Assembly (NCBI GenBank): GCA_019509985.1
Contig: JAEKLF010000053.1
Location: 1-64,000, forward strand
DNA length: 64,000 bases
Direction of reading: 5' to 3'
DNA from: Burkholderiales bacterium
GTDB taxonomy: Bacteria; Pseudomonadota; Gammaproteobacteria; Burkholderiales; Burkholderiaceae_C
The number at the start of each line of letters is the position of its first letter. Position 1 is the first letter of the stretch. Below are positions 20,814 through 59,194 of the stretch, piece after piece. Under the pieces are notes generated by a model that saw only the letters and a list, made by a program, of their open reading frames with translations, was not told where the DNA came from and searched no databases. Both the position numbers and the translations under genes were made by a program.

Positions 20814-23645
20814 ATGACCACCCCGGACGCACCCGACTACCGTTCCACGCTCAACCTGCCCGACACGCCCTTTCCGATGCGCGGCGACCTGCCCAAGCGT
20901 GAGCCGGGCTGGGTCAAGGCCTGGGACGAGCAAGGCCTGTACAAGCGCCTGCGCGACGCCAGCTGCGGCCGCCCGAAGTTCGTGTTGCACGACGGCCCGC
21001 CCTACGCCAACGGCCAGATCCACATCGGCCACGCGGCCAACAAGATCCTGAAGGACATGATCGTCAAGGCGCGCCAGCTGGCGGGCTTTGACGCTGCCTA
21101 CATCCCCGGCTGGGACTGCCACGGCCTGCCCATCGAGAACCAAATCGAGAAGACCTTCGGCCGCGGCCTGCCGCGCGATGAGGTGCAGGCCAAGAGCCGC
21201 GCCTACGCGACCGAGCAGATCGACGGCCAGCGCACGGACTTCAAGCGCCTGGGCGTGCTGGGCGAGTGGAACAACCCGTACAAGACGATGAACTTCGCCA
21301 ACGAGGCCGGCGAGATCCGCGTCTTGAAGCGCATGTTCGAGCGCGGCTTTGTCTACCGCGGTCTGAAACCCGTGTACTGGTGCTTTGACTGCGGCTCGTC
21401 ACTGGCCGAGTTCGAGATCGAGTACGCCGACAAGCAGAGCCCGGCAGTCGACGTGGCCTTCCTGAGCGCCGAGCCCGAGAAACTTGCCGCCGCGTTCGGC
21501 GTGCCGCCGCTGTCCAAGGACGCCTTCACCGTCATCTGGACGACCACGCCCTGGACCATCCCGGCCAACCAGGCGCTGAACCTGAACCCCGAGCTGCCCT
21601 ACGCGCTGGTCGACACGCCCAAGGGCTACTTCGTCGTCGCCGAGGCGCTGGTGGCCAAGTGCCTGGCGCGCTGGCAGCTGGAAGGCAGCGTCGTCGCCGT
21701 CGTGCCGGGCCGCAGGCTGGAGCTGCTGAAGTTCAAGCACCCGCTGGCACACGTGCACCCGGGCTACGACCGCGAAAGCCCGGTCTACCTGGCCGACTAC
21801 GCGACGGCAGAAGACGGCACCGGCGTCGTCCACTCCTCGCCCGCCTACGGCCTGGACGACTTCAACTCCTGCGTCGCCCACGGCCTGGCCTTCGACGACA
21901 TCCTGAACCCGGTGCAAGGCAACGGCGCCTACGCCGCCGACCTGCCGCTGTTCGGCGGCCAGCACATCTGGAAAGCCAACCCCGTCATCGCGCAAGCGCT
22001 GCTGGACGCCGGCCGCCTGATGGCGCAAAGCAAACTGACTCACAGCTACCCGCACTGCTGGCGTCACAAGACGCCGGTCATCTACCGCGCCGCGGCCCAG
22101 TGGTTCGTGCGCATGGACGAAGGCGACGGCCTGTTCACGACCGACAAGGCGCCCGACAGCCTGCGCCAAACCGCGCTGGCCGCCATCGAGGCGACGAGCT
22201 TCTATCCTGAGAACGGCCGCGCCCGCCTGCACGACATGATCGCCGGCCGACCCGACTGGTGCATCTCGCGCCAGCGCAGCTGGGGCGTGCCGCTGCCCAT
22301 CTTCTTGCACAAGGACACGGGCGAGGCGCACCCGGACACGCTGGCATTCATCGAGCGCGCCGCGCAGCTGGTCGAGGCCAACGGCATCGAAGCCTGGTCC
22401 AAGCTCGACGCGGCCGAGTGGCTCGGTGAGGAAGCCGCCCAGTACACCAAGGGCAACGACATCCTGGACGTCTGGTTCGACTCCGGCTCCACCTTCGAGC
22501 ATGTGCTCAAGGGCAGCCACAAGGGCGCGGCGCACGAGACCGGCCCCGAAGCCGATCTCTACCTCGAAGGCCACGACCAGCACCGCGGCTGGTTCCACTC
22601 GTCGCTGCTGATCGCCTGCGCCCTCTACGGCCGTGCGCCCTACAAGGGCCTGCTGACCCACGGCTTCGTCGTCGACGGCCAGGGCCGCAAGATGAGCAAG
22701 TCCATGGGGAATGTCGTCGCGCCGCAAGCGGTGTCCGACAAGTACGGCGCCGAGATCCTGCGCCTGTGGACGGCCGCGACCGACTACTCCGGCGACCTGG
22801 GCCTGGACGACAAGATCCTCGCCCGCGTGGTCGACAGCTATCGCCGTGTGCGCAATACGCTGCGCTTCCTGCTCGCCAATGTCAGCGACTTTGAACCGGC
22901 AACGGATGCCGTTGCGCCCGGCCAGCTGCTGGAGGTGGACCGTTACGCCCTCGCCCGCGCGGCCGAGCTGCAGGCCGACATCCTCGCCCATTTCGAGCGC
23001 TACGAGTTCCACCCGGTCGTCGCCAAGCTGCAGGTCTACTGCTCCGAAGACCTCGGCGCCTTCTACCTGGACGTGCTGAAGGACCGCCTCTACACGACCG
23101 CACCCAAGAGTCTGGCGCGCCGCTCGGCGCAGACGGCGCTGTGGCAGATCACCCAGGCCATGCTGCGCTGGATGGCGCCCTTCCTCAGCTTCACGGCCGA
23201 GGAAGCCTGGACCCTGTTCGGCAAGGGCGAGAGCATCTTCACCGAGACCTATTGGAGTTTCGGCAAAACCGATGCAACGCTGCTCGCCAAGTGGAACCGC
23301 ATCCATGAGATCCGCGACGAGGTCAACAAGGCCATCGAGGCCGTGCGAACGACAGGTGCCGTCGGCGCTTCGCTGCAGGCCGAGCTGGTGCTCAAGGTCG
23401 ACGAACAGGACCAGGCCCTGCTCGCCAGCCTGGGCGAAGACCTGCGCTTCGTCTTCATCACGTCGGCGGTCAAGCTGATGTCGGCCGCGCAGTTCGGCGT
23501 CACGGTCACGCCCAGCAGCCACGCCAAGTGCGAGCGCTGCTGGCACTACCGCGCCGATGTGGGCAGCAATGCCGCCCACCCGACGCTGTGCGGGCGCTGC
23601 GACAGCAACCTGTACGGTGCGGGCGAAACCCGCACCGTGGCCTAA
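20814..23645 (+). CDS. ileS: Isoleucyl-tRNA synthetase
   Basis: 943 residues, full length. Class I signatures are HIGH at residues 70-73 ([11 protein letters not shown]) and KMSKS near 626 ([10 protein letters not shown]). The editing domain lies between ([17 protein letters not shown]). The C-terminal zinc finger CERCWHY...[11 protein letters not shown] holds four Cys. It charges tRNA-Ile. It follows ribF by 72 bases and precedes lspA, although a gene on the opposite strand and a repeat element separate ileS from lspA here. Confidence 0.97.
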
Positions 23646-23651
23646 CCCCGC

Positions 23652-23783
23652 GGACCGGCGCCGGGCCGCCTCAAGCCGGCCCGCAGGCGATGTGCTTGCG
23701 GCTCAACGCCGCGAGCATCGCCGTCCCCTTGGGGGACCGACTGGGCTTGCCGGCGTTCAGCGCGGCAAGACCGGGCGAGGGGC
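23652..23783 (+). repeat. Dispersed multi-hairpin repeat, copy A
   Basis: One of four related intergenic copies (others at 34222, 49046 and, inverted, 59073). The order is: a GC-rich hairpin (CGGGCCGCC..GCCGGCCCG), a long palindrome around CTTGCGGC-TCAAC-GCCGCGAG flanked by GCGATG/CATCGC, a short hairpin GTCCCCTTGGGGGAC, and a final hairpin CTTGCCG..CGGCAAG ending in GGGCGAGGGG. It lies between the convergent ends of ileS and a minus-strand gene. Confidence 0.88.
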
Positions 23784-24290
23784 CTACGGGAAAGCCGGCA
23801 CGTTCGGCTCCACGCCCTCGAAGTGAGCTTCGGGGTGTGTCCGCTCCAGCAATTGCTCAATCTCGGTGATGCGTGAGCGCGGCACGTCGACGATGAGCAG
23901 GTATTGCCCGTCGGCAATGGCCTGCTCGAAGCGTTTCAAGCGCCGGCTCGGCGTCGAGCTGCCGATCATGCTCGACGACCAGGTGCCCAGCACCGCGCCC
24001 ACGGCCGCCAGGCCGATGACGACGGCCTGCGGCGAGCCGGTGCTGATGGCATAGGCCGCCGCCACGCCGCCCGCGGCGCCCAGGCCCGCGCCGACCAGCA
24101 GGCCGCTCTGGGCCGCCTCGACGAGGTCCGAGGTCTGCAGCACATTGGCCGCGTGCAGGCCGTCCATGGACGCGCCCTCGGCGGCGACGAAGTGGATGTG
24201 ATGCTCGGTGATGCGAGCGAGCAACAGCTCGTCCATCGTCCGCCGCGCGCTGTCCAGGCTGGGCAGCAACCAGTAGATGCGTTTGCGCAT
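23784..24290 (-). CDS. DUF1269-like membrane-associated protein with glycine zipper
   Basis: 168 residues from [23 protein letters not shown], directly after repeat copy A. The N-terminal third resembles a small ferredoxin-like sensor ([16 protein letters not shown]). The middle has two Gly/Ala-rich membrane segments ([15 protein letters not shown] and [14 protein letters not shown]) of glycine-zipper type. The C-terminus repeats the N-terminal pattern ([30 protein letters not shown]). This matches the DUF1269 group, whose function is unknown. It runs against the ileS-lspA direction and splits that usual operon. Confidence 0.75.
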
Positions 24291-24436
24291 GGCGCCTCCA
24301 GGAGGAAGGGAGAATTCCGCTTCTACGCCCCTTTGCCAGCAGCCACAAGTCCCAGCCGGCCATACCGGCGGCCCCAGGTACATTTGCGCCCCTGCCCCGC
24401 CCACGCCTCCGACTCCGCTTCGGCCCCGCTGAACCC

Positions 24437-33175: not shown

Positions 33176-34201
33176 TTACTCGCGATTGCTGACGCCAGCG
33201 CTCTCGAAGCTGGCCATCTCGGCCAGCAGCGCACATGCCGCCGTCAGCAGCGGCCAGGCCAGGGCTGCGCCGCTGCCTTCACCGAGTCGCAGCTCCAGGT
33301 CCAGCAGCGGCCGCGCGCCAAGCCGCTGCAGCCATCGTGCATGCGGGCCTTCGGCCGAGCGATGCGCGAACACGCAGGCCGCCAGCACGCCAGGGCGTAA
33401 CGCGTCGGCCAGCGCGACGGCGGCCGTCGTGATGAAGCCGTCGACAACGACGACGCGGCGCCGGGCCGCCGCGGCGATGACGCTGCCGGCCATCGTGACG
33501 ATCTCGAAACCGCCCAGCGCCGCGGCGATCTCCAGCGGCGTCTGCGCGCCGACGTTCATGGCCAGCGCTTCGCCGAGCACACCGAGCTTGCGCGCCAGGC
33601 CGGCGTCGTCCAGCCCCGTGCCGCGGCCGACGCAATCGGCCAGCGGCAGGCCGGTCAGGCGCTGCATCAGGAGGCTGGCCGACGAGGTGTTGCCGATGCC
33701 CATCTCGCCGAGCAGCAACGCGTTGCCGGGCAGACGTTCGACCAGCGCCATGCCGTTGCGCAGCGCGCGCTCAGCCTGCTCGCCCGTCATCGCCGGACCG
33801 GCACTCGCATCGGCCGTGCCGGGCGCGATGCGCAGATTCACGGCGCCGTCGGCCAGCGGCGCGTCGACACCGCAGTCGGCAATCGTCAACGCCAGGCCCT
33901 GCTGTCGCGCCAGCACCGACACGGCCGCGCCGCCGGACAGCATGTTGGCGACCATCTGCGGCGTGACCTCCCGCGGGTAGGCCGACACGCCGCGCCGCGA
34001 AAGGCCATGGTCGGCGGCGTAGACGACGAGCTGCGGCTGTCGCAGCGCCGGCTGCTCGATGCCCTGGATCAGCGCGAGCTGCAGTGCCAGTTCCTCGACG
34101 CGGCCGAGAGCGCCGAGCGGCTTGGTCTTGTGGTCGATCGCGTGCTGGACGCGCGCGCCGAGATCAGGCTCGGCGAGTGCCGGAAGGTCAGGAAAGTTCA
34201 T
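33176..34201 (-). CDS. cobT: Nicotinate-nucleotide:DMB phosphoribosyltransferase
   Basis: 341 residues. CobT transfers phosphoribose from nicotinate mononucleotide to dimethylbenzimidazole, making alpha-ribazole-phosphate for the lower B12 ligand. Seen here are DHKTKPLGALGRVEELA near residue 24, VYAADHGLSRRGVSAYP, LLGEMGIGNTSSASLLM and the C-terminal ELRLGEGSGAALAWPLL with the catalytic Glu expected in GEGSG. Length and order match the family. A dispersed repeat (copy B) and the CbiB-like gene precede it on the same strand. The cobU/cobP gene is absent from the window. Confidence 0.95.
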   Translation of the reverse strand: MNFPDLPALAEPDLGARVQHAIDHKTKPLGALGRVEELALQLALIQGIEQPALRQPQLVVYAADHGLSRRGVSAYPREVTPQMVANMLSGGAAVSVLARQQGLALTIADCGVDAPLADGAVNLRIAPGTADASAGPAMTGEQAERALRNGMALVERLPGNALLLGEMGIGNTSSASLLMQRLTGLPLADCVGRGTGLDDAGLARKLGVLGEALAMNVGAQTPLEIAAALGGFEIVTMAGSVIAAAARRRVVVVDGFITTAAVALADALRPGVLAACVFAHRSAEGPHARWLQRLGARPLLDLELRLGEGSGAALAWPLLTAACALLAEMASFESAGVSNRE

Positions 34202-34221
34202 GGGAGCAGGTCGTTGAATTT

Positions 34222-34356
34222 CGGGCCGAGCGCCGGGCCGCTCCCAAGCCGGCCCGCGCTGGCGATGCTTGCGGCTCAACGCCGCAAGCATCGCCGTCCC
34301 CTCGGGGGACCGACCGGGCTCGCCCGCGTTCAGCGGAGCGAGACTGGGCGAGGGGC
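34222..34356 (+). repeat. Dispersed multi-hairpin repeat, copy B
   Basis: The best-formed copy. GGCGATGCTTGCGGC-TCAAC-GCCGCAAGCATCGCC is a perfect 15-bp stem with a 5-base loop. It is flanked by GGGCCGAGCGCCGGGCCG..CGGCCCG on the left, and by GTCCCCTCGGGGGAC and CTCGCCC..GAGCGAG on the right, ending CTGGGCGAGGGG. It lies in the 160-base gap between the CbiB-like gene end and the cobT start, both transcribed right to left. Confidence 0.9.
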
Positions 34357-34363
34357 ATCACGT

Positions 34364-35353
34364 TCAGCCGACGAGGTTGGCCAGGGTCAGCAGCGCCAAC
34401 AGCAGCATCCACAGCACGACCGAGCGCCAGACCAGGCCGACGACGCTTTGCAGATGGCCGAGCTGGGGCTGTGCGCCGGCCGTGGAGCCGGCGGCGCCGG
34501 TGGCGTCGGGTTCGGAGCCGGCGTCGAAGGTCTTGCTGCGATCCGGTGTGATGCCGGGTGCCGCGGCGCCGCCCAGCTGCAGGCCCACGGCACCCGCTGC
34601 GGACGCGAGGATGATGCCTTCGTTGGCATGCAGCCACAGGCTCGCGTCGCGGCGCCAGCCGTTCACGGCTTCCTCGAAGTTGCCGACGATGGCAAAGCCC
34701 GTCGCCGTCAGCCGCGCGGGCAGGTAGTCGATCAGCGAGAAGGCCTGGCGCGACAACGACAGCAGACGCGGGTTGGTCGGCGCGTCCAGCGTGCGGCTCT
34801 TGAAGGCCCAGTAGCGGCTTGCGAACTCGGCCATGCGGTAGAGCACCGCGCCGGCGGGGCCGAGGCCGATGGTCGAGCAGACGACGAACCAGAAGAACAC
34901 GCCGAAGACATGGCGGTGCGCGGCGAGCAGCGAGTGCTCGACGACATGGCGGATCAGCTCGGTGCGCGGCAGCTCGCTCGCGTCCAGGTGGCGCCACTCG
35001 GCCAGCAGCTGGCGGGCGGTCGCATCGTCGCCACGCTCCAGTGCGTTGCGGATGTCGGTGAAGTAGTGGCTGAACTGGCGGAAGCCCAGCGTCAGGTAGA
35101 GGATGAGCACGTCCAGCCCGAGGGCCAGCAGCAGGCTGAAGTGGCGCAGCGCCAGATAGACCGCTGTGACGGCCAGACCGGGCACCAGCACGGTGATGGC
35201 CCAGACGACAGCGGCGTGGTGTTCATCGCCGGCGTCGAAGTTGCGGCCCGTCCAGCGCACCCAGCCGATGACCGACTGATGCACGCGGTTGCCATGCCTC
35301 AGGGGCTTGAGTTGCTCACACAACAGGGCCAGCAGCACCGCGAAGAAATTCAT
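34364..35353 (-). CDS. CobD/CbiB family membrane protein
   Basis: 329 residues. N-terminal and C-terminal hydrophobic segments frame a polar centre. It begins MNFFAVLLALLCEQLKPLRHGN. The central motif FGVFFWFVVCSTIGLGPAGAVLYRMAEF matches CbiB-like proteins, which attach aminopropanol to cobyric acid in B12 synthesis. Burkholderiales carry this shorter group beside other cob genes; AmpE-like proteins are also related, so enzymatic activity is not proven. It is separated from cobT only by repeat copy B, and probably shares the cob transcript. Confidence 0.78.
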   Translation of the reverse strand: MNFFAVLLALLCEQLKPLRHGNRVHQSVIGWVRWTGRNFDAGDEHHAAVVWAITVLVPGLAVTAVYLALRHFSLLLALGLDVLILYLTLGFRQFSHYFTDIRNALERGDDATARQLLAEWRHLDASELPRTELIRHVVEHSLLAAHRHVFGVFFWFVVCSTIGLGPAGAVLYRMAEFASRYWAFKSRTLDAPTNPRLLSLSRQAFSLIDYLPARLTATGFAIVGNFEEAVNGWRRDASLWLHANEGIILASAAGAVGLQLGGAAAPGITPDRSKTFDAGSEPDATGAAGSTAGAQPQLGHLQSVVGLVWRSVVLWMLLLALLTLANLVG

Positions 35354-49024: not shown

Positions 49025-49045
49025 GTATTGGTGTTGTCTTTTCTG

Positions 49046-49172
49046 CGGGCCGAGCGCCGGGCCGCCCCAAGCCGGCCCGCAGGCGATGTACTTGCGGCTC
49101 AATGCCGCAAGTGTCGCCGTCCGGGGGACCGACCAGGCTCGCGGCGTTCAGCGCGCGAGACTGGGCGAGGGG
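49046..49172 (+). repeat. Dispersed multi-hairpin repeat, copy C
   Basis: The same order of hairpins as the other copies: GGGCCGAGCGCCGGGCCGCC..GCCGGCCCG, then GGCGATGTACTTGCGGC-TCAAT-GCCGCAAGTGTCGCC, then a shortened GTCCGGGGGAC, then a perfect final hairpin CTCGCG-GCGTTCAG-CGCGAG, then CTGGGCGAGGGG. It lies between the rpsT terminators and the convergent hydrolase gene. Confidence 0.88.
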
Positions 49173-49180
49173 TCAACCAT

Positions 49181-50059
49181 CTAGTGCCACTCGCCCGGCA
49201 CGACGCCCTGGATGCTGCGGTCGCGCAGCCACTCCGTGATGGCGCGTGCAACCCAGAGCGGGTCGTCCAGCGGCAGGTCATGCCCGGCCTTCGTGTGCAG
49301 GCGCAGCGGCGCACCCCAGGCGCGGCTGATGGCCTGCGAGCAGCGCCAGTCGATCAGGTTGTCGGCCTTGCTGCACAGCAGCAGCATGGGCGCGGACGGC
49401 CGTGTGCGGCTGGCGCGGTAGCGCATGCTGGCGAGCAGCTGGCGCGCGGTGTTGCGCACGCCCAGCGGGTGCTGGCGCTGCAGTTCCACCCAGCGGTCGA
49501 TGACCGCCTGCGTCGGCGTCAGCCGTGTCGTCAGGCTGAGCACGCGCTCTTCGCGCATGCGGGCGCTGAAGCGGCTCAGCGACAGCAGCAGCAGCCCGAG
49601 ATAGTTCAAGGGACGCGGCTTGCGAAAAAGTTCGCTGAAGGGTCGCAGGCTGGGATTGATCAGCACGCCGGCCTCGACCTCGCTCGGATAGCGATTGGCC
49701 CAGTCGCTCAGCACCGCCGCGCCCAACGACATGCCGATCAGCGACACCGGTCCGCTGACGCCGCGCCCTTGCAGTTCGGCACGGCAGGCATCGACGATGG
49801 CCGAGACCTGCGTCGGACTGGCTTGCCGGCGCTGCGTGCCGGTGCCCGGCAGATCCAGCATCAGCATTTGCGCCGCCGGTTGCAGCAGGCGCAGTTCGCG
49901 CAGCAGATGCTCAGGGAAGACACCCCAATGCCCGCTTTCACGCGACAGCCCGCGCAGCAGCACCCAGACCGGCGTCGGCACGCGCTCCGCCGGCGCCAGC
50001 ATTGGCGCGGTGAGGAACGGGGCGGGAGCTGCCGTGGCAGCGTTGAGGTTCACCGGCAT
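49181..50059 (-). CDS. Alpha/beta hydrolase family protein
   Basis: 292 residues from MPVNLNAATAAPAPF; an upstream TTG would lengthen it by 25 residues. The hydrolase core has the nucleophile elbow IGMSLGAAVLSDW (G-x-S-x-G), an Asp in LLLCSKADNLIDW and a His in TKAGHDLPLDDP. No signal peptide is evident. Lid helices between residues 140 and 220 are Arg-rich. The substrate is unknown. It ends close to repeat copy C, and sits between rpsT and the DUF3579-argD-argF group. Confidence 0.85.
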   Translation of the reverse strand: MPVNLNAATAAPAPFLTAPMLAPAERVPTPVWVLLRGLSRESGHWGVFPEHLLRELRLLQPAAQMLMLDLPGTGTQRRQASPTQVSAIVDACRAELQGRGVSGPVSLIGMSLGAAVLSDWANRYPSEVEAGVLINPSLRPFSELFRKPRPLNYLGLLLLSLSRFSARMREERVLSLTTRLTPTQAVIDRWVELQRQHPLGVRNTARQLLASMRYRASRTRPSAPMLLLCSKADNLIDWRCSQAISRAWGAPLRLHTKAGHDLPLDDPLWVARAITEWLRDRSIQGVVPGEWH

Positions 50060-50130
50060 GTTGCTAAACGTTGCTGGCGAGGATAACGGCGAGCCGCCGC
50101 CGCAGGGTTCGGGAATGTCGCTAGGGCGAG

Positions 50131-50469
50131 TCAAGCGCCCGGCTTGCCGCCGGGGCCGTCAGGCAACAGACAGGCGTCGGCGACCTGCAGGTTGTTGTCG
50201 CGCGCAAAGTTCATGACGAAGTCCCAGGCCATCGGCTCGAGGCGCTTGAGCTCCTCGTTGACGATGACGCACTTCACGCCGTTGATGACGGTGGGCACGC
50301 ACAGCGGCGAGTAGCCGATGTAGGCGCCGATGCCGCCGCGCCCGCCACCGGGCCTGAAGCAGGACATCGCACCGGCCAGCCGCTCGGCCCAATCGCTCGG
50401 GCGGAAGGTGCGTCCATCCAGGGTCACACCTTGGATGAAGACTTCGCGCGGCGGGGGGGCAACGGTCAT
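50131..50469 (-). CDS. DUF3579 family protein
   Basis: 112 residues starting MTVAPPPREVFIQGVTLDGRTFRPSDWAERLAGAMS. It ends in a C-terminal helix rich in Asp and Asn (MAWDFVMNFARDNNLQVADACLLPD). DUF3579 is confined mainly to betaproteobacteria and is regularly found divergent from argD, as here; its role is unknown. A TTG two codons earlier is in frame, but the ATG is chosen. It has no close operon partner on its strand. Confidence 0.87.
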   Translation of the reverse strand: MTVAPPPREVFIQGVTLDGRTFRPSDWAERLAGAMSCFRPGGGRGGIGAYIGYSPLCVPTVINGVKCVIVNEELKRLEPMAWDFVMNFARDNNLQVADACLLPDGPGGKPGA

Positions 50470-57463: not shown

Positions 57464-58431
57464 TCCGCCTCGCCCTGCGCCTGCGCGCGGCGCTGCTGCT
57501 CGCGCTCTCGGCCTGCTCTCTCACACTCGCCCTGCCCGCCTTCGCCCACGAGATGAGCATGGCCGAGATGCAGCTGCGCGAGACCCAGCGCGGCGAATTC
57601 CTGTGGCAGTGGATGGCCACCGAGAAGCGCCCCGCCGCCCAGGACCTGACACCCGTCTGGCCGGAGGGCTGCACGGCCGACGCCACCGTGCTGCGCTGCG
57701 GCGCGCATGGCCTCGCGGGCCCGCTGTCAGTCAAGGGCGTCGGCGAGCGCTACTCGGCGGCCCTGGTCAAGGTCTTCTGGCTCGATGGCCAGACCCGCGT
57801 CTACACGCTGACCGCCGGCCAGCCCACCGTGCAGCTCTACGGCGCGGCCGACGACCCGCGCGGCATGGGCGAGATCGCCAGCGCCTACACGCTGCTCGGC
57901 GTCGAGCACATCCTGAGCGGCGTCGACCACCTGCTCTTCGTCATCGGCCTGCTCTTCCTCGTCGGCTTTCGCCGCCGCCTGGTCTGGACCATCACCGCAT
58001 TCACCGCCGCGCACAGCCTGACGCTGGCCTGCAGCGCACTGGGCCTGCTGACGCTGCGCTCGGCGCCGGTCGAGGCCAGCATCGCGCTGTCCATCGTGCT
58101 GGTCGCGGGCGAGGCCCTGCAGCAGCGCGACACCCTCGCGCGCCGCTGGCCGGCCTTGGTGGCCTTCCTGTTCGGCCTCGTGCATGGCCTGGGCTTTGCC
58201 GGGGCGCTGAAGGAAATCGGCCTGCCCGAGAACCACCTGCTCGTCGCGCTGCTGACCTTCAACGTCGGCGTCGAGATTGGCCAGTTGCTCACGGTCGGCG
58301 CCTGCTGGTGTCTGTGGCGCGTCAGTGCCCGCTGGCCGGCCATGCAGCGCCTGCGCACCGTGCTGCTCTACGTCATCGGCAGCGTCGCGGCCTACTGGTC
58401 GTGGCTGCGCGTCGCGGCGCTGCTGGCGTGA
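57460..58431 (+). CDS. HupE/UreJ family membrane protein
   Basis: 323 residues. An N-terminal signal-like segment RAALLLALSACSLTLALPAFA precedes a soluble domain (residues 30-140) and then six to seven membrane helices. The HupE/UreJ signature is GVEHILSGVDHLLFVIGLLFL with His and Asp, followed by ITAFTAAHSLTLACSALGLL and LFGLVHGLGFAGAL. The family is linked to nickel uptake near hydrogenase or urease, but no such enzyme is here. It is coupled to the parvulin gene and 8 bases before a 2OG oxygenase, so another metal, possibly for the PHP protein or oxygenase, is one idea. Confidence 0.83.
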   Translation: MIRLALRLRAALLLALSACSLTLALPAFAHEMSMAEMQLRETQRGEFLWQWMATEKRPAAQDLTPVWPEGCTADATVLRCGAHGLAGPLSVKGVGERYSAALVKVFWLDGQTRVYTLTAGQPTVQLYGAADDPRGMGEIASAYTLLGVEHILSGVDHLLFVIGLLFLVGFRRRLVWTITAFTAAHSLTLACSALGLLTLRSAPVEASIALSIVLVAGEALQQRDTLARRWPALVAFLFGLVHGLGFAGALKEIGLPENHLLVALLTFNVGVEIGQLLTVGACWCLWRVSARWPAMQRLRTVLLYVIGSVAAYWSWLRVAALLA

Positions 58432-58439
58432 GTCGCGAC

Positions 58440-59066
58440 ATGACCGACGAAGTCATCGGCCTCTTCCCGGTGCCGCTGCTGCGCGCGCCGGGCGTGTTGC
58501 CGCAACCGCTGGTCAAGGCCCTGGTCGATCACTTCAGCACCCGCGCGCTGGAGACCAACAACAGCTCCGACGCCCTCTCCCACACGCGCATGCTGCAGCC
58601 CTCGGACAGCCCGCTGCTCGTGCAGGTGGCCGCTCTCGTCACGCCCAAGATCGCCGACTTCGGCCGCCTGCTGTTCGGCGAGCAGCTCGGCTGGGCCATC
58701 AAGGAGATGTGGGTCAACGTGCTGGACACCGGCGGCCGCCAGGCCATGCACAACCACGCCAACAGCTTCGCGTCCGGCGTCGTCTACCTGACCGAGACCG
58801 ACGACTCGGCGCGCACCGTGTTCATGAAGTCACCCGGCGGCCATGACTTCGCGCTGAAGAACGACCACGCGGGCGTGACCACCGGCCCCTATAACGCCGA
58901 GAAATGGGTCAGTCCCGCACCCAGCCCGGGCGACCTGATCCTGTTCCCCAGCTACCTGATGCACGCCGTGCCACCCAACGCCGGTGGGCGCCGCATCAGC
59001 CTGGCCTTCAACGCGATCCCGACGCGCTTGGAAAGCTGGGGCTACACCCTGAGCTTCAACGCTTGA
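58440..59066 (+). CDS. 2OG-Fe(II) oxygenase, TIGR02466 family
   Basis: 208 residues. The iron-ligand region is MHNHANSFASGVVYL (H104, H106) and the distal His is near residue 175 in LMHAVPPNAGGRRISLAFN, followed by the 2-oxoglutarate-binding Arg. GLFPVPLLRAPGV opens the family. Members are putative dioxygenases in the phytanoyl/prolyl-hydroxylase fold, with unknown substrates. The ATG follows the HupE/UreJ stop by 8 bases. Its cofactor iron links it to the metal transport genes, but that is inference. It is followed by repeat copy D. Confidence 0.83.
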   Translation: MTDEVIGLFPVPLLRAPGVLPQPLVKALVDHFSTRALETNNSSDALSHTRMLQPSDSPLLVQVAALVTPKIADFGRLLFGEQLGWAIKEMWVNVLDTGGRQAMHNHANSFASGVVYLTETDDSARTVFMKSPGGHDFALKNDHAGVTTGPYNAEKWVSPAPSPGDLILFPSYLMHAVPPNAGGRRISLAFNAIPTRLESWGYTLSFNA

Positions 59067-59072
59067 AATGAC

Positions 59073-59188
59073 TCCCCTCGTCCAAGGAGTTCCTTGGCCG
59101 GTCCCCCGAGGGGACGGCGATGCTGGCGGCATCAAGCCGCAAGCACATGGCCTGCGGGCCGGCTTGGGGCGGCCCGGCGCCGGTCCGC
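59073..59188 (-). repeat. Dispersed multi-hairpin repeat, copy D (inverted)
   Basis: The fourth copy, on the opposite strand to the other three. Read on the minus strand it begins GCGGACCGGCGCCGGGCCGCCCCAAGCCGGCCCGC, then GGCCATGTGCTTGCGGC-TTGAT-GCCGCCAGCATCGCC (partly degenerate), then GTCCCCTCGGGGGAC, then a last hairpin CCAAGGA-ACTCCTTGG, then ACGAGGGG. It lies between the 2OG oxygenase and the spermidine synthase-like gene, and the latter could be misread as starting in it. Confidence 0.85.
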
Positions 59189-59194
59189 GTCTCA

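Follow-up and report, generated by a model that had tools for sequence, protein, structure and literature searches.

The repeat found at four places in the 64,000-nt stretch of DNA analysed here (the window) belongs to a hairpin-repeat family that seems to be new, modular and REP-like, and whose mover enzyme is putative. Its copy number is high, and its stem-loops are conserved with compensatory changes. The reading that we favour, with moderate confidence, is that of a mobile hairpin element, modular, non-autonomous and similar to REP/BIMEs, which belongs to the Roseateles/Pelomonas lineage and to related genera and occupies a niche at stop codons.

The four copies lie, to within a few bases, where the earlier note had placed them, and have the hairpin order that it had described, with the following extents (from the covariance model) and neighbours:

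23648..23783, + strand: copy 1, 138-nt type; H1 at about 23650-23684, H2 at 23686-23722, H3 at 23723-23737, H4 at about 23738-23777, right end to 23783
20814..23645, + strand: IleRS gene, ending 2 nt before copy 1
23784..24404, - strand: gene abutting copy 1, its stop codon 0 nt from the 3' end of the copy; without Pfam match
34219..34356, + strand: copy 2, within the cob block
33176..34201, - strand: DBI_PRT phosphoribosyltransferase (CobT-type), starting just past copy 2; start codon picked by eye
34364..35353, - strand: CobD/CbiB; 7 nt lie between its stop and the 3' end of copy 2
49043..49173, + strand: copy 3, with 4 nt missing from H3
49181..50134, - strand: alpha/beta hydrolase; 7 nt lie between its stop and the 3' end of copy 3
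59073..59190, - strand: copy 4, short-H4 type (about 121 nt)
57603..59066, + strand: open frame with a 2OG-Fe(II) oxygenase as its C-terminal part; 6 nt lie between its stop and the 3' end of copy 4; the true start is probably further in than 57603

The order common to all four is H1, H2, H3, H4 and right end, where H1 is of the GCGGGCC/GGCCCGC type, H2 is centred on CTTGCGGC, H3 is GTCCCC/GGGGAC and the right end resembles GGGCGAGGGGC. The deviations are the shortened H3 of copy 3 and, in copy 4, a short H4 (CCAAGG-AACT-CCTTGG) with GGACGAGGGGA as the end. The gene contexts were also as previously described: copy 1 is found at the IleRS end, between convergent genes; copy 2 between the CobD/CbiB stop and the DBI_PRT start; copy 3 at the end of S20, again between convergent genes; and copy 4 behind the oxygenase stop, before the next gene. 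A protein with a spermine-synthase-like domain is a further neighbour. What had been missed is that the 3' end of each copy is 0, 7, 7 and 6 nt (copies 1 to 4) from a stop codon on the opposite strand.

The family is by no means confined to the window. In a blastn query of its own genome the best 40 of 226 candidates matched, and 30 of these were used to build a covariance model (A2, R1), with which 147 copies were scored at E <= 0.001 among 150 candidates. The whole-genome search that the earlier note had proposed was thus carried out, and the two findings that would have spoken against its claim, an element occurring only in the window or copies without shared pairing, were not obtained. The same model gave from 19 to at least 150 matches in each of 20 genomes of the genus. 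With stricter filters and 21 candidates scored per genome, matches were found in 42 of 150 genomes at the family level, and at the order level in 1 of 150, that is the genome of the window itself, in a sample that includes at least three further genomes of its own family. In a named collection, at least 80 loci held at least 95 matches at E <= 0.01 and, among the matches listed, these were in Pelomonas, Roseateles, several MAGs and one genome labelled Methylotenera. The copies mostly sit between called genes and, as imperfect palindromes present more than 100 times outside genes, are comparable to known extragenic repeats. Among the titles and abstract openings returned as matches, the family is not named in Roseateles or Pelomonas.

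Both strands of the element fold well. If compared to dinucleotide shuffles, window copies 1 to 4 gave z values of -3.05, -5.04, -2.64 and -2.30 on the model strand, and of -2.63, -4.76, -3.81 and -3.07 on the opposite one. RNAalifold on 30 copies returned 44 pairs, 11 of them with double changes, and the 15-bp stem of H2 showed many compensatory swaps (its top pair is C-G in 133 and G-C in 35 of the 173 copies, out of 175, that could be counted). Mismatches were then used to distinguish the strands, at the 51 pairs shared by the folds of the two strands in a MAFFT alignment of 141 copies: read on the model strand, there were 219 G-T and 92 A-C pairs, beside 6352 Watson-Crick and 404 other pairs. 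The excess of G-T over A-C suggests, as we read it, that selection acts on the folding of the model strand, the one that lies antisense to the abutting gene where the long forms are concerned. Unpaired columns were biased the opposite way (C-to-T 37/840, G-to-A 95/1396), and an alignment-free count on H2 alone gave 46 vs 15; in H3 the bias is small (7 vs 5). Binomial p values for these counts overstate significance, because the copies are kin.

The most distinctive feature of the family is its strong bias of place and orientation at stop codons. The earlier note had suggested mapping the copies against gene ends; among 172 unique copies, placed with a crude GC3 gene caller after three more had been dropped at locus edges, 121 have the stop of an opposite-strand gene from -1 to 11 nt from their right end, in 115 cases from 0 to 11 nt. 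Random intergenic positions and orientations have a stop so placed in 4.4% of cases. In 13 of the 172 copies a + strand gene stops at the left end, and in three one starts at the right end. By set, the stop is so placed in 34/44 copies of the own genome, 26/34 of the genus top matches, 52/81 of the named collection and 9/13 of the two-species set; most of these copies were chosen by score or motif, the two-species set alone by position. The latter consists of 13 of the 25 entries in two close species (G030 and G157), and when all 25 are taken, 13 have the stop within -1 to 11 nt. In the own genome, 38 of 41 copies have an opposite-strand gene on the right side, with its stop within the same interval in 32.

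Moreover, the hairpin modules are interchangeable, and forms of 82, about 121, 138 and about 210 nt exist. In Roseateles/Pelomonas, longer copies carry either a module X of about 75 nt inside H1 or a module Y of about 80 nt between H3 and H4, so that, with an optional H2 and two types of H4, the family is a mosaic of palindromic modules as described for BIMEs. The 82-nt form consists of H1, H3 and a short H4, occurs in other genera (G066, G056, G119 and G005) with 17 to 46 matches per genome, and builds a tandem array with a 90-nt period in one of them (G066:C198:144240-144681; L390, L428). This form often lies at ATGA stop/start seams: in 68 copies, ATGA was found at +5..+8 in 26, in the left window in 33 and at both places in 18, the left-window background being 124 of 1439 windows. 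A + strand gene lies on the left in 57 of 69 copies, 31 of which also have one on the right; therefore, 82-nt forms are mostly oriented opposite to the long forms.

Orthologous sites differ in the presence or absence of the element. The cobD site is filled in 6 of 20 genus genomes, nine others have just 10-21 nt from stop to next start, and the remaining five differ in other ways. The ileS site is filled in 8 of 20 genus loci, one locus (L240) ending short of it. In eight of the 20 (L221-L239), ileS is followed directly by a gene that starts with ATGGCGGGCAA and that we take to be lspA-like, unlike in the window (23640-24404), where the element and a convergent gene come after ileS. The two close species contain 25 element entries in 764 kb: 17 are unshared, 16 of them with both flanks located in the other genome, and for eight (four sites) the other genome has an element close by, one of these pairs being on opposite strands. 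At one locus (L358:10640-10900, G157:C1), the element-free allele holds another inverted repeat, of the TGCAACCACAGAGGCACGGAGG type, in the same gap. No tRNA or tmRNA was found beside a shared copy in L337. Filled alleles are often 10-45 nt longer on the left as well, where a left-flank motif, CATGTCAG, occurs 15 times vs 0.1 expected and is followed in some copies by GTTGTCC. In several filled/empty pairs the alignment is too poor for the junctions to be placed exactly, and the long-form junctions are untidy.

Could the element chiefly be a functional 3' end of the abutting mRNA, protecting the end or slowing the terminating ribosome, with selection keeping it in place? The placement and orientation of 121/172 copies would fit, the sense strand also folds strongly, and ribosome stalling is described, in the available text of PMC12306157, for E. 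coli REPs that lie within 15 nt of a stop codon. Against it, the antisense strand is the one favoured by the wobble bias, close species do not share 17 of 25 entries, and most 82-nt forms have the other orientation (57/69 with the + strand gene on the left), which makes this explanation rather unlikely. An intrinsic terminator also seems unlikely, no T-run having been noticed behind the sense-strand hairpins.

A MITE mobilized by an ordinary DDE transposase that makes short target duplications appears improbable. The flanks of some copies do have matched repeats (e.g., CCATGTCA in L292 and TCCATGTCAG in L065), repeats of 8 or more were counted in 8 of 173 copies vs 3.1 expected, and the 82-nt form has ATGA on both sides in 18/68 copies. 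However, the target duplication of the long forms, suggestive when unanchored, was no longer significant once anchored at the right end (8/164 vs 5.1 expected, p = 0.13 by permutation), the wobble bias is on one strand, and terminal inverted repeats are absent by eye; in fact, the ends GCGGGCCGAG and GAGGGGC of the alignment are not inverted repeats of each other. Thus, a MITE in the strict sense, one of the possibilities raised at the outset, is not supported. An autonomous parent, expected to be longer, to share the ends and to enclose a gene, was not found in the 764 kb of two relatives and the window, which cover little of the genomes; what came up instead were modular copies of greater length and unrelated matches due to chance.

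Just as improbable is an independent family of small or antisense RNAs that would be transcribed from the model strand: the compensatory changes, the model-strand wobble bias and the transcribed region contained in the Bordetella BRE of about 90 bp (PMC3110155, in its available portion) agree with it, while copy number, species-specific presence, module swapping and the lack of any Rfam match do not. A known RNA family was discarded, as Rfam gave no match for the window at the gathering score and none for 10 own-genome loci up to E = 1. The structured RNA that had also been considered is supported in so far as the pairing is real, but the wobble bias favours the strand antisense to the abutting gene.

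Returning to a mobile, REP-like element, a candidate mover was sought among RAYT-type genes. The window had been said to lack a transposase, which holds for the Y1_Tnp domain (PF01797); the two matches of the own genome lie elsewhere:

G000:C68:13087-13929: own RAYT-type gene C68; strong homologues (E <= 1e-50) in 24/150 family genomes
G000:C347:7350-7673 (L171:4309-5025): second own RAYT-type Y1_Tnp gene, before a large frame, presumably gltB-like; a type common in the family

Some Y1_Tnp match is present in 112/150 family genomes, and one of them, G015, has 20 matches, some of them fragments, of up to 152 bits, as an expanded IS200/IS605-type family. A C68 homologue was found in 15/15 genomes with a strong element match (E <= 1e-10) and in 9/135 others, or in 20 of the 42 genomes with any element match vs 4 of the 108 without, a co-occurrence that is confounded by shared ancestry. 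G084, whose element match of 1.5e-10 is just outside the strong class, is without a homologue, as are 22 of the 27 family genomes with weaker matches (no strong homologue) and, although it has 40 copies, G165.

Of 47 RAYT-type loci (flanks up to 1.5 kb; a few of them have other Y1 types), one has clear element copies close to the gene, and three more have weak matches of 70-75% (L192, L202 and L306). The own C68 locus has two element copies in the same orientation, one of them 1.3 kb off, rather than a flanking inverted pair. HUH and Tyr motifs were read as those of RAYT-type proteins. The own C68 protein keeps HYH and the Tyr motif, and scores 74.3 bits vs the NF047646 cut-off of 80. Among the 15 strong-element genomes, five keep both HUH histidines and 10 have them changed; among the nine RAYT-bearing genomes without a strong element match, seven keep them and two have them changed. 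Within the genus, eight genomes keep them and 10 are changed (including G167, so scored despite a second, intact gene), with G160 unreadable and G165 without the gene; copy number did not differ significantly between intact and changed (p = 0.24). In two groups of loci (L191-L214, L299-L318) the RAYT-type protein is full-length, with HUH changed (HYD, HYE, HYQ and others) in about half, and in such homologues the Tyr is sometimes also changed while the reading frame is still open. The RAYT search suggested by the earlier note thus gave co-occurrence in 15/15 genomes on one side and copies beside the gene at 1/47 loci on the other; with the latter figure and HUH changed in 10/15, we did not accept the RAYT as a proven mover.

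As for published systems, REP/BIMEs with RAYTs are mainly reported from Gammaproteobacteria, the only class with RAYTs that satisfy that paper's definition, in the excerpts of PMC2817692 and PMC8266576. These systems and our family have in common extragenic, GC-rich, imperfect palindromes in more than 100 copies and mosaic arrays, as well as a folded single strand as the likely substrate. By the same excerpts, the family differs in that the GT(A/G)G head is absent by eye from both strands of the 138-nt consensus and of the 82-nt alignment, in that clear copies beside the gene were seen at 1/47 loci and are there not inverted, and in having four different hairpins in a fixed order. On two tested features, head and flanking inverted copies, it is therefore not a RAYT-REP; and the alternating REP orientation of BIMEs is replaced by a fixed order and orientation of different hairpins. 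The REP/BIME likeness proposed by the earlier note is borne out by 147 palindromic, intergenic, mosaic and species-specific copies, while the RAYT link is one of co-occurrence only.

CGTC-tagged REPs, as far as the consulted part of PMC3733652 describes them, are likewise palindromic repeats without an associated transposase gene, and in the 82-nt form a CGTC is seen by eye at the base of its short H4; they have stems of 8-9 bp, almost always with A-T first, and are mostly dimers, whereas ours are multi-hairpin units of 82-210 nt. The nearest published candidate, compared by description and not by sequence, is BRE, the Beta-proteobacterial repeat element of Bordetella (about 90 bp, with a transcribed region): it too is GC-rich, mostly intergenic, strain-variable, found in tandem arrays and from Burkholderiales, and its length recalls the 90-nt period of the 82-nt form in G066. 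In the extract of PMC3110155, BRE has up to 29 copies and a stop-codon niche is not reported. The hairpin at about 15 nt or less from a stop codon resembles E. coli REPs, for which the portion of PMC12306157 at hand (citing earlier work for the ribosome stalling) gives 446/4,072, vs 121/172 here in one orientation.

Taken as a mobile REP-like family, the element would move in single-stranded, folded form, with the model strand (in the long forms, the one antisense to the abutting gene) as the strand that moves, and an HUH/Y1 enzyme of RAYT type acting in trans would be its likeliest mover, now or in the past. Insertion at stop/start seams would spare both reading frames, which would explain the stop-codon niche, and a hairpin array settled close behind a stop may have an effect on the ends of mRNAs or on the release of ribosomes, as has been reported for E. 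coli REPs. A more specific version, offered tentatively, is that the element enters overlapping or near-overlapping stop/start codons (ATGA, TGANATG), restoring both and breaking neither gene, and is accompanied by a protein of RAYT descent whose nuclease residues are being lost in element-rich lineages, and which is perhaps kept as a repeat binder.

The family addresses the question of where mobile repeats can land harmlessly in a packed genome. Settling at stop codons in one orientation, the ATGA-seam 82-nt form and copies that vary between close species make both target choice and cost testable. A natural series is also provided by the RAYT-type proteins, some with their catalytic residues and some without, in genomes holding the same repeats.
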